A DNA stretch of 59,363 bases from positions 1 through 59,363 of the forward strand of contig NZ_JAICBZ010000014.1 in the NCBI RefSeq assembly GCF_020179405.1. Direction: 5' to 3'. Below the pieces are notes generated by a model. It was not told where the DNA came from and ran no database searches. It saw nothing but the letters and a program-made list of their open reading frames with translations. Every line of letters starts with the position of its first letter. Position 1 is the stretch's first letter. The position numbers were made by a program, and so were the translations under genes. Shown here in pieces: positions 22,050 through 31,725 of this stretch. This DNA is from Xinfangfangia pollutisoli (GTDB taxonomy: Bacteria > Pseudomonadota > Alphaproteobacteria > Rhodobacterales > Rhodobacteraceae).

Positions 22050-22657
22050 CCCGGGCGTTCACCGGCGACAGGCTGGTGATCGCCAGCCACAACCGCGGCA
22101 AACTGGCCGAATTCTCGGACCTTCTGGCGCCCCTGGGCATCACATGCGTTTCGGCGGCGGATCTGGGCTTGCCCGAACCCGCCGAAACCGAAGACACGTT
22201 CCTGGGCAATGCGCGGATCAAGGCCCATGCCGCGGCGAAAGCCTCGGGCCTGCCCGCCCTGTCGGACGATTCCGGCCTGACAGTCGACGCGCTGGATGGC
22301 TCGCCCGGGGTGTTCACGGCGGATTGGGCCGAAACGGGCCAGGGCCGCGACTTCATCATGGCGATGGAAAAGACCTGGGCGCATCTGGAATGGCTGAAAG
22401 CCCCCCTCCCCCGCCGCGCCCAATTCCGTGCCACTCTGGTCCTGGCTTGGCCCGACGGCCATGATGAATGGGTCGAAGGCGTCGCCGAAGGCCAGCTGGT
22501 CTGGCCCCGCCGTGGCGCGGACGGCCATGGCTATGACCCGATGTTCCAGCCCGACGGCTTTGATCGCACATTCGCCGAACTGACCTCGGCGGAAAAGAAC
22601 GCAATCAGCCATCGCGGCAAAGCCGTGACTGCATTGCTGGCGAAGTGTTTCACGTGA
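22046..22657 (+). CDS. rdgB: XTP/dITP pyrophosphatase
   Basis: 203 aa. It begins [15 protein letters not shown], the typical (S/T)xN-x4-K motif of the HAM1/RdgB family, and carries [15 protein letters not shown] and [25 protein letters not shown]. It hydrolyses non-canonical purine NTPs (ITP, dITP, XTP) and so keeps them out of DNA. It overlaps rph by 4 nt and hemW by 13 nt. Its stop codon lies inside the parS-like site. Confidence 0.95.
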
Positions 22658-23820
22658 AACGGCCGGAGAACTGGCAAGAGGGCGGCTTTGCGCTGTACTT
22701 GCACTGGCCGTTCTGCAAGGCGAAATGCCCCTATTGCGATTTCAACTCGCATGTGCGGACGGCGATTGACCAAAGCGACTGGCAAAAAGCCTATCTGGCC
22801 GAACTGGACCGCGTCGCGGCGGAAACGCCTGGCCGCATTCTGAGATCGGTGTTCTTCGGTGGCGGGACGCCCTCGCTGATGGAGGGCCCGCTGGTCGCGG
22901 CAATTCTGGACCGCGTGGCGCGGAACTGGCGCTTGACCAATGATGTCGAGATCACGCTGGAAGCCAATCCGACTTCGGTTGAAGCCGCGCGTTTTCACGC
23001 CTATCGCGCGGCCGGGGTCAACCGGGTGTCGCTGGGTCTGCAGGCCCTGAACGATGCCGATCTGCGCCGCCTTGGCCGCCAACATTCGGCCGCCGAGGCC
23101 CTTGCCGCCTTCGCATTGGCGCGCGAGACCTTTCCCCGGGTGTCCGGCGACCTGATCTATGCCCGGCAGGACCAGACTTTGCCGGCCTGGCGGCAGGAAT
23201 TGCGGCAGTTGACGGCGCTTGGCCCCGACCACCTGTCGCTGTACCAGTTGACGGTCGAAGACGGCACGGCCTTTGGCGCCCTGGCCCGCGCCGGCAAGCT
23301 GAAAGGCCTGCCGGATGAGGATCTGGCGGCGGAAATGTATCTGGCCACCGAAAGCATCTGCACCGAAGCGGGCTTGCAGGCCTATGAAGTGTCGAACTAT
23401 GCCGCTTCGGGCGCGGAATCGCGGCACAATCTGGTCTATTGGCGGATGGGCGATTACATCGGCATCGGCCCCGGCGCGCATGGACGGCTGACGCTGGACG
23501 GCTTGCGCTATGCGACCGACACGCCGAAATCACCGGAAGCCTGGCTGAAAGCGGTCGACCAGACCGGCTCGGGCGAGTTGCCGCGTGAAGTGATTTCCCG
23601 CGATGCGCAGGGAACCGAGTATCTGCTGATGGCGCTGCGCCTGTCGGAAGGCGCCTCGCTGGCGCGATATGCTGGGCTTGCGGGCCGCAAAATCGCGGAA
23701 AATCGGCTGCAGCAGCTGCAGGATGACGGGTTTCTGACCCGCGACGGGGACCGGATCGCCGCCACCGACACCGGCCGGTTGCTGCTGAACCGGCTGGTGC
23801 TGGAACTTCTGCCCGATTAA
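22645..23820 (+). CDS. hemW: Radical SAM protein HemW (heme chaperone)
   Basis: 391 aa. The cluster motif C-x3-C-x2-C (CKAKCPYC) lies near residue 24, followed by FFGGGTPSL and ITLEANPTSVE of the coproporphyrinogen-dehydrogenase-like group. HemW inserts heme into respiratory enzymes rather than oxidising coproporphyrinogen. The GTG start at 22645 makes the first codons part of the partition site, giving the peptide start MFHVK. There is no clear Shine-Dalgarno, so translation is probably coupled to rdgB. Its stop overlaps the convergent parB stop. Confidence 0.93.
   Translation: MFHVKRPENWQEGGFALYLHWPFCKAKCPYCDFNSHVRTAIDQSDWQKAYLAELDRVAAETPGRILRSVFFGGGTPSLMEGPLVAAILDRVARNWRLTNDVEITLEANPTSVEAARFHAYRAAGVNRVSLGLQALNDADLRRLGRQHSAAEALAAFALARETFPRVSGDLIYARQDQTLPAWRQELRQLTALGPDHLSLYQLTVEDGTAFGALARAGKLKGLPDEDLAAEMYLATESICTEAGLQAYEVSNYAASGAESRHNLVYWRMGDYIGIGPGAHGRLTLDGLRYATDTPKSPEAWLKAVDQTGSGELPREVISRDAQGTEYLLMALRLSEGASLARYAGLAGRKIAENRLQQLQDDGFLTRDGDRIAATDTGRLLLNRLVLELLPD
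22646..22661. promoter_or_regulatory. parS partition site (one mismatch)
   Basis: TGTTTCACGTGAAACG matches the 16-bp parS consensus TGTTTCACGTGAAACA at 15 positions. It lies across the rdgB stop and the hemW start, about 2 kb from parB. The palindromic core GTTTCACGTGAAAC is perfect, so ParB binding is very likely. Confidence 0.85.
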
Positions 23821-24728: not shown

Positions 24729-25544
24729 TCAGCGCCGCAGACGCCCTGCAATCTCTTCCGCCAGCGCCCGATAGGCGACGGCCCCGCGCGACGCCGTGTC
24801 ATATTGCAGCACCGGCAAAGCATGCGAGGGCGCTTCCGACAGCCGCACATTGCGCGGAATGATGGTCTGAAACACCATATCGCCCAGGTTTTCGCGCGCA
24901 TCGGCCTCGACCTGCTGGGCCAGATTGTTGCGCCGGTCGTACATCGTCAGCACCACGCCTTCGATCCGCAGATCGGGATTGGCGCTGCGGCGCACATCGC
25001 GCACCGTCAACAACAGCTGCGACAGGCCTTCCAGCGCGAAAAACTCGGCCTGAAGCGGCACCAATACGGCATGCGAGGCGACCAGCGCATTCACCGTCAG
25101 CAGGCTGAGCGAGGGCGGGCAATCGATCAGCACGACATCGAAGCCGCGCTGTTCGATATCGGGATGACGCAGAGCGTCATGCAGCAGGAAGCTGCGCTTT
25201 TCATTGGCCACAAGGTCGATGTCGGCCGAGGCAAGATCGGAATTTGCCGGACAAATCCACAGGTTAGGCACGGCGGTTTCGCGGATGATCAAATCCGGCT
25301 GCCCATCGGCAAGCAGCAGATCATAGGTGGTCATCTGCCGTTCAGCCGGCGTCACCCCAAGCCCGGTCGAGGCATTGCCCTGCGGATCAAGATCCACCAG
25401 CAGCACGCGAAAGCCGATCTCGGCCAGGGCTGCCGCCAGATTGATCGCCGTCGTGGTCTTGCCGACCCCGCCCTTCTGATTGGCGATGGCGATGACATGT
25501 GCGGGTTGAGGATCGGGAAGGGACAGGGGCTCAGTCGCCGGCAC
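24729..25544 (-). CDS. parA: Chromosome partitioning ATPase ParA
   Basis: 271 aa from a GTG at 25544, overlapping the rsmG end by 14 nt. The deviant Walker A KGGVGKTTTAINLA sits at about residues 24-37, DLDPQGNASTGLG follows, and VLIDCPPSLSLLTVNAL is Walker B. It binds DNA as an ATP dimer and pulls ParB-parS complexes apart. The N-terminus has a short extension before the Walker motif, as is usual for alphaproteobacterial ParA. It is co-transcribed with rsmG and parB. Confidence 0.97.
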   Translation of the reverse strand: MPATEPLSLPDPQPAHVIAIANQKGGVGKTTTAINLAAALAEIGFRVLLVDLDPQGNASTGLGVTPAERQMTTYDLLLADGQPDLIIRETAVPNLWICPANSDLASADIDLVANEKRSFLLHDALRHPDIEQRGFDVVLIDCPPSLSLLTVNALVASHAVLVPLQAEFFALEGLSQLLLTVRDVRRSANPDLRIEGVVLTMYDRRNNLAQQVEADARENLGDMVFQTIIPRNVRLSEAPSHALPVLQYDTASRGAVAYRALAEEIAGRLRR

Positions 25545-26154: not shown

Positions 26155-28032
26155 CTAGACCGCCCGCGGCAGCGGCTGGCGTTTCAGCGCGGCGATCAGC
26201 AGCAGGATCGCGGCCGGGGTCATCCCCTCGATCTGGCGGGCCTGGTGCAGGTTTTCGGGCCGCAGCCGTTCCAGTTTCAGCGTCAACTCGGCCGAAAGAC
26301 CCGACAATGCGCGATAATCGAAGCCCTGCGGGATCCCCAGGGCCTCGTGCCGGCGCAGATCTTCGGCATCTTCGGCCTGGCGGCGCGCATATTGGGCATA
26401 AAGCGCCTCGATTTCAGCCTGTTTGCGGGTTTCCGGGGCCAATTCAACCAGTTCCGGCGCCAGTGCATCGAGCCTTGCGGCGTCGTAATCGGGCATGGCC
26501 ATCAAATCGAAGATCGGCCGGCGCAGCCCATCCTGGCTGACCAGGATGCCGCCCGCTGCCAGTTCTTTCGGAGTAAAGCTGCGCGATTTCAACAGGTTGA
26601 TCGCTTGATCGAGCGCTTCCAGCTTCTCGCTGAAGGCCCGCCCGCGCGGTTCCTTCACCAGGCCAAGGGCCAGGCCCAGCGGCGTCAGGCGCTGATCGGC
26701 ATTGTCGGCCCGCAAGCTGAGGCGATATTCGGCGCGCGAGGTGAACATGCGATAGGGCTCAGTCACGCCGCGCGTGGTCAGATCGTCGATCATAACGCCA
26801 AGATAGCTGTCGCTGCGCGAAAACGCCTGGCCGTCGCGCCCTTTCGCCAGCAGCGCGGCGTTCAGACCCGCAACCAGGCCCTGCGCCGCGGCCTCTTCGT
26901 ATCCGGTGGTGCCATTGATCTGGCCGGCCAGGAAAAGCCCTACCAAAGCCTTGGATTCCAAGGTAATCTTCAGCCCGCGCGGATCGAGATAGTCATATTC
27001 GATCGCATAGCCCGGCTGGGTGATGACCGCCCGTTCCAGCCCGCGAATCGTGCGGACATAGGCTTCCTGCACCTCGGCCGGCAGCGAGGTGGAAATGCCG
27101 TTCGGGTAGACCGTGGGATCGTCAAGCCCTTCTGGTTCCAGAAAAACCTGATGGCTGTCCTTGTCGGCAAAGCGCACGACCTTGTCTTCGATCGACGGGC
27201 AATAGCGCGGCCCCACGCCTTCGATATGGCCGCCATACATCGCCGAGCGGCCGAGATTGTCGCGGATGATCTGATGCGTGGCGTCGGATGTATGGGTGAT
27301 GCCGCAGGAAATCTGCCGGGCGATCGGCGCGCGGTTCAGGAAGGACAGCATCACCGGATCGTCATCGGCGGGCTGCATCTCCAGCTGCGCCCAGTCGATC
27401 GTGCGCCCGTCAAGCCGCGGCGGCGTGCCGGTTTTCAGCCGGCCCGTCGTCAGGCCCAAGCCGCGAATCTGGTCGGCCAAAGCGACTGACGGCCGGTCGC
27501 CGACCCGGCCCCCCGCGCGCTTCTGATCGCCGACATGGATGATTCCATTCAGGAAAGTGCCCGTCGTCAGCACCACGGCGCGCGCGAACAGCTCGGACCC
27601 ATCGGCCAGGCGCAGGCCTTCGACGGCTGTGCCCGACAGAATGAGTTCGGCCGCTTCGCCTTCGACGATGTCCAGCCCGGGCTGGGCTGACAGCAGCGCC
27701 TGTACGGCGGCACGATAGAGCTTCCGGTCGGCCTGAGTGCGCGGCCCCTGAACGGCCGGGCCTTTGCGCCGGTTCAAAAGCCGGTACTGAATGCCTGCCA
27801 TGTCGCCCGCGAGGCCCATGATCCCATCCAGCGCGTCGATTTCGCGCACGAGATGGCCCTTCCCCAGCCCGCCAATCGCCGGATTGCAGGACATGACGCC
27901 GATCGTATCGGCCCGCATCGTGACAAGCGCAGTCGCAGCGCCCATGCGTGCCGCCGCAGATGCAGCGTCCGCGCCGGCATGACCGCCGCCCACGACGATG
28001 ACGTCAAAATGTTTCACGTGAAACACCCTCAC
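26155..28032 (-). CDS. mnmG: tRNA uridine-5-carboxymethylaminomethyl modification enzyme MnmG
   Basis: 625 aa from GTG 28032, overlapping the mnmE stop (GTGA). A second GTG at 28026 is equally possible and would give the start MFHVKHFD seen in relatives. The FAD motif [12 protein letters not shown] is near the N-terminus, and the GidA signature [15 protein letters not shown] lies in the middle. With MnmE it modifies the wobble uridine of several tRNAs. The start codons are part of a perfect parS. Confidence 0.97.
28010..28025. promoter_or_regulatory. parS partition site (perfect consensus)
   Basis: TGTTTCACGTGAAACA, all 16 consensus bases, lies in the first codons of mnmG. It is about 2.6 kb from the probable origin and about 2.5 kb from the start of parA. 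Confidence 0.95.
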
Positions 28033-29322: not shown

Positions 29323-30591
29323 TTACGTGTTCATCGAGTCGAAGAAATCGCTGTTCGACTTGGTCTGTTTCAGCTTGGAAATCAGGAACTCGATCGCATC
29401 GGTGGTGCCCATCGGGTTCAGGATGCGCCGCAGCACATACATCTTCTGCAGATCGTTCTTGTCGACCAGCAGGTCTTCCTTCCGGGTGCCGGATTTCAGG
29501 ATATCCATGGCCGGGAAGGTGCGCTTGTCGGCAACCTTGCGGTCCAGCACGATTTCGCTGTTCCCGGTGCCCTTGAATTCTTCGAAGATCACTTCATCCA
29601 TGCGCGATCCGGTGTCGATCAGGGCGGTCGCGATGATGGTCAGCGACCCGCCCTCTTCGATGTTCCGCGCCGCCCCGAAGAAGCGCTTGGGGCGCTGCAG
29701 GGCGTTGGCGTCGACACCGCCGGTCAACACCTTGCCCGAGGACGGCACGACGGTGTTGAAGGCGCGGCCCAGACGGGTGATCGAATCCAGCAGGATCACC
29801 ACATCGCGCTTGTGTTCGACCAGCCGCTTGGCCTTTTCGATCACCATTTCCGCCACCGCGACGTGCCGCGTCGCCGGTTCGTCGAAGGTCGAGGACACGA
29901 CCTCGCCCTTCACGGACCGCTGCATGTCGGTGACTTCCTCGGGCCGCTCGTCGATAAGAAGGACGATCAGGTAGCATTCCGGGTGATTGGTCGCGATGGA
30001 ATGGGCAATGTTCTGCAGCAGAACGGTTTTACCCGTGCGCGGCGGCGCCACGATCAGCGCCCGCTGGCCTTTGCCGATCGGCGCCACCAGGTCGATGATC
30101 CGGGCCGAACGGTCCTTGATCGTGGGATCGTCGATTTCCATCTTCAGCCGCTCGTCCGGGTACAAGGGCGTCAGGTTGTCGAAATGGACCTTGTGCTTGG
30201 CCTTTTCCGGGTCGTCGAAGTTGATCTTCGTGACCTGGGTCAGGCTGAAGTATTTCTCGTTTTCCTTGGGCGCGGCGATCACACCTTCGATCGTGTCGCC
30301 GGTGCGCAGGCTGTACTGGCGCAGGATGTCGGGCGAGACATAGATGTCATCCGGGCCGGGCAGATAGTTGGCCGAGGGGCTGCGCAGGAAGCCGAAGCCG
30401 TCTTGCAGCACTTCCAGAACCCCGTCGCCGCCGATTTCATAGCCTTCTTCGGCATGCTCTTTCAGGATCGAGAACATCATCTCGCCCTTGCGCATCGAAG
30501 GGGCGTTCTCGATTTCCCACTCCTCGGCCATGGCGAGGAGATCGGCAGGCGTCTTTGCCTTGAGGTCGGCGAGGTTCAAACGTTCGGTCAT
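29323..30591 (-). CDS. rho: Transcription termination factor Rho
   Basis: 422 aa. An N-terminal RNA-binding helix and cold-shock-like fold ([23 protein letters not shown]) are followed by the hexameric helicase with Walker [12 protein letters not shown] (about 182-192), [13 protein letters not shown] and [13 protein letters not shown], then the Q-loop-type [11 protein letters not shown]. It is the first gene of the left-hand arm of the origin region. A GGATCTTCC lies next to the ATG, so the ribosome site is weak. Confidence 0.98.
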
Positions 30592-31134
30592 GGAAGATCC
30601 CGGGGCCCGGTCGCAACAGACCAGGACAGAAGCGAGGAAAGGGGAAGTGCCTGGGCCGGACGGCCCTGCTGATCGCGCAGATAGTCGGCCGGGCAGATAA
30701 AGTCAACTGCGGTCTGGGTCGGGGGGCGGATGGGCCACCGTCCTCTTCTTCTTAATAAGAAAAGAATCTTGAAAGGATGATGATGTAGGGGCGGTGGATA
30801 ACAGGATTGTCGCCAAAGCCCCCGGACTTTCCCCCAGACCAGCCGCCCGTGGATAAGCCGGGGATAAAACTGCAGAACCTGGAATTCATCGAAAATAATC
30901 ATTTTCTGTCAGAGGCTTGTGCTGATCCGCGCCGGTGGAAAAGATCTGCGGCGCAGGGGCGGAAAACCCCCGATGGCAGGCTTTCCCACAGGCTTGGGAC
31001 AGCCCCATCCCCTTGCGGATAACCCGCGCGGGGCTTGACAGAACCGGCCCTCGCACCGCTTTCTGGCAGCCGAGGCCGGGTTTACCCTTGCCGACTTCGC
31101 AGGAACGAAACCGGATTTTCCACAGATTCCCCCC
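30592..31134. other. oriC: Probable chromosomal replication origin (oriC), gene-free
   Basis: 543 bp with no coding region between divergent rho and maf. DnaA-box-like 9-mers (consensus TGTGGATAA) with one mismatch: GGTGGATAA 30793-30801, CGTGGATAA 30848-30856, TGCGGATAA 31014-31022 and, on the other strand, TTTTCCACA 31116-31124. Weaker ones are at 30859-30867, 30934-30942 and 30982-30990. A+T-rich patches at about 30741-30785 and 30881-30906 (including the inverted repeat GAAAAT-AATC-ATTTTC) could be unwinding elements. rho-mnmE-mnmG-rsmG-parAB on one side and maf-aroE-coaE-dnaQ on the other is, by my recollection, also the arrangement around the Caulobacter origin. No experiment supports it here. 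Confidence 0.8.
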
Positions 31135-31725
31135 ATGCTTCTTCTCGCCTCCGCCTCTGAGACGCGGCTCGCCATGCTGCGCGCCGCCGGTCTGACCGTC
31201 GATGCCCTGCCCGCGCGGGTCGATGAAGACGAGGTGCGCCGCGGGCTTGAGGCCGAGGGCGCCTCGTCCCGCGACGTGGCCGATGCGCTGGCCGAGCTGA
31301 AGGCGGCCAAGATCTCGGCCCGCCGGCCCGAGGCGCTGGTTCTGGGCGCCGATCAAGTGCTGGATCTGGGCGGCAAGATCTATGCCAAGCCCGAAAGCCC
31401 GGAACAGGCGCGCCAGCAGCTGCAGGAGCTGCGCGGCCGCACCCATATGCTTCTGTCGGCGGCGGTGCTGTATCAGGGCGGGCAGCCGCAATGGCGCCAT
31501 GTCGGCGTGGCGCGGCTGACGATGCGCGACGTCTCGGACAGCTATCTTGACGATTATCTGGCGCGGAACTGGGAAACCATCCGCCACAGCGTCGGCGGAT
31601 ATCGGCTGGAAGAGGAAGGCGTGCGGCTGTTCAGCGCGATTTCCGGCGACCACTTTACCATACTGGGCCTGCCGCTTCTGCCGCTCTTGTCCAATCTGTC
31701 CGAGCGAGGGATCATCCCGGCATGA
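31135..31725 (+). CDS. maf: Maf-family nucleotide pyrophosphatase
   Basis: 196 aa. The start [18 protein letters not shown] is the Maf signature, with [18 protein letters not shown] afterwards. Maf proteins hydrolyse modified or canonical nucleoside triphosphates (dTTP, UTP, or m7GTP in the YceF subgroup); which applies is not clear. The ATG lies 10 nt after the last DnaA-box-like sequence, and no Shine-Dalgarno is visible, so initiation could be leaderless. It is the first gene of the right-hand arm of the origin and overlaps aroE by 4 nt. Confidence 0.92.

Follow-up and report, generated by a model that had tools for sequence, protein, structure and literature searches.

The 543-bp noncoding gap between rho and maf in the Rhodobacteraceae bacterium Xinfangfangia pollutisoli is very probably the bidirectional replication origin (oriC) of the main chromosome, where DnaA would bind, open the duplex and allow initiation. 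The support for this assignment was computed directly and consists of a cluster of DnaA boxes, the recurrence of these boxes in relatives, a reversal of GC skew at the orthologous place in congeners and matches to parS. The origin is an ordinary one, at a place already published for Rhodobacteraceae, and the analysis confines it to 543 bp in this genome.

The rho–maf locus

The analysed stretch of DNA (hereafter the window) comprises 59,363 nucleotides and corresponds to contig C46 of the draft genome (G000). A first-pass annotation, made from the sequence alone, had described a noncoding gap of 543 bp flanked by rho on the minus strand and maf on the plus strand, and this gap is real. The locus is made up as follows.

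30592..31134, no strand: predicted chromosomal oriC, rho–maf intergenic region (box cluster, recurrence in 51 sequences, congener skew minimum)
29323..30591, minus strand: rho, left flank (Pfam Rho_RNA_bind, Rho_N)
31135..31725, plus strand: maf, right flank (Pfam Maf)
24729..25544, minus strand: gene for a ParA-type ATPase (Pfam AAA_31, CbiA, MipZ)

The statement that the flanking genes all point away from the gap holds for the adjacent blocks, from rho to parB on one side and from maf to dnaQ on the other, but not for the whole window, in which reading frames further to the left, such as 22645–23820, lie on the plus strand. Seven neighbouring proteins were assigned by a Pfam scan (Rho, Maf, AroE, CoaE, a DnaQ-type exonuclease, MnmE and the ParA-type ATPase), and MnmG, RsmG and ParB were identified from their translations only. 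The G+C content of the gap is 59.9%, compared to 66.5% for the whole window. No Rfam family matched within the window at gathering thresholds, and a DNA search with the gap as query produced matches in 6 of 40 genomes, its own included. Beside rho, at 30636–30669, a stretch of 28–34 bp is 89–93% identical in two congeners (G002 and G010) and is perhaps a promoter or leader element of rho.

A cluster of DnaA boxes

Four 9-mers with one mismatch and three with two mismatches to TTATCCACA had been claimed for the gap, and all of them are present. Except where indicated, the sites listed below come from a consensus scan, and their positions were compared across the rows of the alignment of related sequences considered in the next section.

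30793..30801, minus strand: DnaA box TTATCCACC, one mismatch, adjoining the triplet element; position recurs in the alignment
30848..30856, minus strand: DnaA box TTATCCACG, one mismatch
30859..30867, minus strand: weak DnaA box TTATCCCCG, two mismatches
30934..30942, minus strand: weak DnaA box TTTTCCACC, two mismatches
30982..30990, plus strand: weak DnaA box TTTCCCACA, two mismatches
31014..31022, minus strand: DnaA box TTATCCGCA, one mismatch
31116..31124, plus strand: DnaA box TTTTCCACA, one mismatch, next to the start of maf; a plus-strand box lies nearby in most rows

Dinucleotide shuffles of the gap contained on average 0.05 sites with one mismatch and 0.75 sites with up to two, and none of 5000 shuffles reached four of the former or seven of the latter. 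The gap therefore carries a cluster of DnaA boxes beyond chance, which is one of the properties looked for in an oriC. Within the window, every 543-bp stretch with seven sites overlaps the gap, the maximum clear of it being four, and four of the five one-mismatch sites fall inside it. Perfect copies of TTATCCACA are absent from the gap, and five are found elsewhere in the same genome.

The draft genome as a whole contains 158 sites within one mismatch of the consensus, and among the matches listed (about 100 of the 158) no other place has four such sites equally close together. The next densest group among those same matches is found on another contig (C90:5563-5983), where three one-mismatch boxes occupy ∼420 bp; this group might serve as the origin of a plasmid or titrate DnaA. 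The reversed TTATCCACA pattern yielded 321 sites at the same threshold, against the 158 counted, so that such sites look avoided in this genome.

Recurrence of the boxes in relatives

The comparison set consisted of the 420 bp preceding maf in 51 distinct sequences, the window included. Duplicates (L070, L071 and L077) and rows shorter than 420 bp (L007, L021 and L065) had been dropped. Apart from nine rows from congeners and three (L019, L022 and L027) assigned no further than class or phylum, the rows belong to Rhodobacterales or Rhodobacteraceae. In two rows, L039, which reaches a contig end, and L074, no rho was observed next to maf. The number of sites with at most two mismatches has a median of 7 per row (range 3 to 12) and is at least four in 50 of the 51 rows, whereas mononucleotide shuffles of the rows contained about 1.1, with only 16 of 5100 reaching the count of their own row. 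At the stricter limit of one mismatch the median drops to 2, and two rows, L017 and L026, are left without any site. The boxes recur about 340, 315, 290, 200, 150, 130 and 20 bp before maf, not all of these places being occupied in every row.

The rho–maf gap measures ∼1 kb in many relatives, and in the three that were checked (L010, G011 and G015) a gene of the UPF0093 family, which we take to be hemJ, lies between rho and the origin (187–199 bits); no such gene intervenes in the window. The genome of the window and 11 of 12 sampled congeners contain only more divergent UPF0093 copies (best scores 78–92 bits), none of them on the window contig. The pattern resembles a replacement of the gene accompanied by its loss from the origin.

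GC skew in congeners and the dnaA locus

The genome of the window is a draft of 188 contigs, which puts its own whole-chromosome skew out of reach; two congeners with chromosome-size contigs were therefore used, G008 (contig C1, 3.43 Mb) and G012 (contig C1, 3.51 Mb). The first-pass annotation had proposed a search for the skew minimum as a check, and in both congeners the outcome agrees with an origin between rho and maf. Over 400 kb of tiled sequence, cumulative G−C reaches its minimum at 3057043 in G008 and at 725152 in G012, each ∼60 bp outside the orthologous rho–maf gap (3056368–3056983 and 724474–725089, respectively).

On a coarser scale, 20 samples of 15 kb were taken per contig. When the arms were split at rho–maf and half a contig away, skew was positive in 9 of 10 samples on one arm against 2 of 10 on the other in G008, and in 9 of 10 against 0 of 10 in G012. 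The mean-corrected cumulative minimum of these samples falls at 707500 in G012, the sample nearest to rho–maf, and at 2914500 in G008, where the next sample but one is already past rho–maf. The two-arc split with the highest contrast is bounded elsewhere than at rho–maf in either congener (520500–1033500 in G008; 7500–2807500 in G012), and hence the turning point cannot be located from the coarse samples alone. Within the window, cumulative skew is lowest at 29940, inside rho, with a skew of −0.021 to the left and +0.027 to the right, a contrast matched by 1 of 10,000 block permutations. Thus, the cumulative GC-skew minimum expected at an oriC is found at the orthologous place in G008 and G012 and, for the draft genome itself, only locally.

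The fine skew also bears on whether replication might start at the dnaA gene, as it does in many bacteria, with the rho–maf boxes serving only as a regulatory DnaA reservoir. The dnaA gene is only ∼80 kb away in both congeners, so that coarse skew alone would not separate the two places, and in the genome of the window the dnaA contig begins inside the gene, leaving its upstream side out of view. However, on the fine scale cumulative skew is still descending at dnaA: it drops another 830 units in G008 and 991 in G012 before reaching rho–maf, where it turns. Over about 360–420 bp upstream of dnaA, sites within one mismatch of the consensus are absent from three loci (L091, L095 and L096); of two further loci that begin at or inside dnaA, L094 has none and L092 has one, located past the domain match. 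We consider an origin at dnaA very improbable and reject it on the fine skew of the two congeners.

Distant loci and the place of the Caulobacter origin

In ten more distant loci (L045–L054), all with long gaps, the 420 bp preceding maf contain no site within one mismatch of the consensus. In the four of them that were annotated (L046, L048, L050 and L052; none belonging to Rhodobacterales), the gene for uroporphyrinogen decarboxylase (hemE) and a Kinase-PPPase gene stand between rho and maf, and the boxes within one mismatch of the consensus are located in the interval between these two genes or right at the beginning of the longest PPPase reading frame. The PPPase family, PF03618, presumably equals COG1806. 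As had been noted in the first-pass annotation, neither hemE nor the PPSR-like gene stands between rho and maf in the window: hemE is located on a different contig (C22), and a search of the window's own genome for PF03618 gave no match. In Caulobacter, mapping placed oriC between hemE and the COG1806 gene (PMC1914354). The origin has probably stayed in place while the framing hemE and PPPase genes left, as gene order suggests. The analysis indicates that the origin of the group is located at the place framed by these two genes in other alphaproteobacteria, which ties it to the mapped Caulobacter origin.

That the boxes merely form a DnaA-controlled promoter region for rho or maf is hardly credible: the gap does lie upstream of both divergent genes, and one box ends 10 bp before maf, but seven boxes over ∼330 bp together with A+T tracts exceed, in our judgement, a usual promoter, the skew reverses at rho–maf in two congeners, and in the four annotated distant loci the boxes keep to the hemE–PPPase interval, the stretch before maf being free of sites within one mismatch in all ten. 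The view of the first-pass annotation that the rho–maf gap is the chromosomal origin is supported by the skew minima of the congeners, the recurrence of boxes in 51 sequences and the hemE–PPPase position in four distant loci.

Putative sites for chromosome segregation

The window was scanned with the parS consensus, and two sites were retrieved.

28010..28025, plus strand: perfect parS consensus match, at the start of the mnmG reading frame (0 in 100 shuffles)
22646..22661, plus strand: second parS-like site, one mismatch (consensus scan)

The perfect site lies 2.6 kb from the gap, and parA is near. Each of the two sites falls right at the beginning of a listed reading frame, where it encodes FHVK close to the N-terminus. 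In Rhodobacter sphaeroides, ParB1 has been used as a marker of the origin of chromosome 1 (PMC6315104).

A+T tracts and a conserved triplet element

The two A+T-rich stretches reported earlier are present, each with 62% A+T over 60 bp (from 30742 and from 30862) against a window mean of 33.5%. The following elements accompany the boxes.

30746..30775, no strand: A+T-rich tract by the outermost DnaA box, predicted duplex unwinding element (62% A+T in 30742–30801)
30776..30792, minus strand: conserved triplet element, GCCC spacer followed by CTA-CAT-CAT-CAT-C (51-sequence alignment; putative role)
30891..30906, no strand: small hairpin GAAAAT-AATC-ATTTTC, not conserved
30907..30919, plus strand: degenerate IHF-like site, two mismatches from WATCAANNNNTTR; better match in many relatives

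An A+T-rich element is thus found, as is usual for an oriC, and it would be the site of unwinding; at the aligned place (30735–30774) the mean A+T fraction over the 51 rows is 0.69. The hairpin to which the first-pass annotation had drawn attention exists, but the weight given to it does not stand: hairpins of 6 bp are present within the aligned zone in 3 of 51 rows, one of them the window, where shuffling yields 2.5 on average, and we reject the hairpin as a functional element. The sequence WATCAANNNNTTR is taken here as the IHF consensus. Sites with at most one mismatch to it were found in the aligned zone of 30 of 51 rows, whereas 200 mononucleotide shuffles gave a mean of 5.9 and a maximum of 13; the window itself has two mismatches.

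The best conserved segment of the alignment is 30746–30801, which on the minus strand reads as DnaA box, GCCC, CTA-CAT-CAT-CAT and a T-rich tract. In 33 of 51 rows, the window among them, CTA comes four bases beyond the box place, and ATCATC is present in the element of 29 of 51 rows, compared to 4% of 44-bp windows from the same regions. Of the 42 rows that could be scored for register, 35 have the last CAT a multiple of three bases from the first triplet, seven leave a remainder of 1 and none a remainder of 2. This count left out nine of the 51 rows, which lack a start triplet or a CAT. A CAT beyond the repeat was picked in four of the seven remainder-1 rows (L067, L068, L069 and L074) and in one of the 35 (L028). 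The rows are non-independent owing to shared ancestry, L067–L069 being close to each other. When up to three mismatches were tolerated, a 23-letter pattern describing the element matched 9 of 80 genomes (its own included), once in each, and the reversed control matched none of the 80; with so few genomes matched, the pattern is not a family-wide detector. Among the matches in other genera, all five loci that were fetched lie between rho and maf, and three more matches came without a locus.

Taken together with the boxes, this arrangement suggests how initiation may proceed. DnaA-ATP would bind the array of seven boxes between 30793 and 31124 and spread from the outermost box (30793–30801) across the short G+C spacer onto the triplet element. 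The adjoining A+T tract (∼30746–30775) would then be opened and the helicase loaded there, and two forks would leave, one through rho and mnmE and the other through maf and aroE. ParB bound to the nearby parS sites may subsequently segregate the copies.

Comparison with known origins

According to PMC4793288, which cites DoriC, the origin of Rhodobacteraceae adjoins maf, and the origin assignments in PMC6699656, covering 101 Rhodobacteraceae strains, relied on GC disparity, DnaA boxes and parAB. The gap adjoins maf and has parA and parB near, parB being assigned from translation only. The maf-adjoining origin predicted by DoriC/Ori-Finder, with Ketogulonicigenium vulgare as example (PMC4793288), and the gap are alike in the position beside maf, the box cluster, the skew minimum and the proximity of parAB. 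No essential difference was found, although all boxes here are at least one base off the consensus.

With Cori of Caulobacter crescentus (PMC1914354), the gap shares its syntenic place, DnaA boxes and an A+T-rich region; many relatives also have an IHF-type site, which is degenerate in the window. The gap differs in the flanking genes, hemE being elsewhere and the PPPase gene not found, and in having no exact CtrA site (TTAA-N7-TTAA). An exact CtrA site occurs in only 1 of 51 rows and one with at most one mismatch in 16 of 51, the latter number standing without a control; we reject control by CtrA for the gap. In Rhodobacter capsulatus CtrA is not essential (PMC2877005).

The box–spacer–triplet–A+T element is the least described part of the origin and, as judged by its sequence, resembles the basal unwinding system (BUS) while departing from the published DnaA-trio rule. 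The DnaA-trio lies on the strand opposite the box strand. The BUS, as outlined in PMC8287927, PMC6669920 and PMC10721633, consists of a DnaA box, a short G+C spacer, triplets with the consensus 3'-GAT-5' and an A+T tract. The same order is seen here (box, 4-bp G+C spacer, triplets, A+T tract), and the first triplet is the complement of 3'-GAT-5', the triplet that is most frequent nearest the box in the BUS: CTA holds this place in the 33 rows mentioned above. The later triplets, read in the register of the first, differ from those in the published descriptions in being without the middle adenine.

The published general rule (a box, a spacer of up to 16 bp and at least three NAN triplets) fits 30 of 51 rows; in shuffles it fitted 24.4 on average and 35 at most. 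The mean NAN run over rows, 3.16, equals the highest of 300 shuffles (mean 2.67), and in the window the run comprises 4 triplets starting 8 bp from the box. Judged by the number of rows, a strict DnaA-trio reading is not favoured, the 30 rows being no more than shuffles provide, although the mean run equals the shuffle highest. No tandem box with at most two mismatches lies beside the element, the next co-oriented one in the window being 55 bp away; tandem co-oriented boxes accompany trios in 57% of the published BUS predictions and so are not strictly defining. A narrow literature search on the terms Rhodobacteraceae and DnaA-trio found no paper joining the two. Deviant DnaA-trios were expected by the BUS authors, but not shown. 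Our tentative suggestion, for which we would put the chances somewhat below even, is that Rhodobacterales origins open via such a deviant trio, formed by one canonical triplet followed by CAT or CAA without the middle adenine, in a register held by selection. If so, the Rhodobacterales element would be a natural example of the suspected deviant DnaA-trio. The box–spacer–triplet element also provides a short DNA substrate with which one could ask directly how strictly DnaA depends on the published trio sequence.
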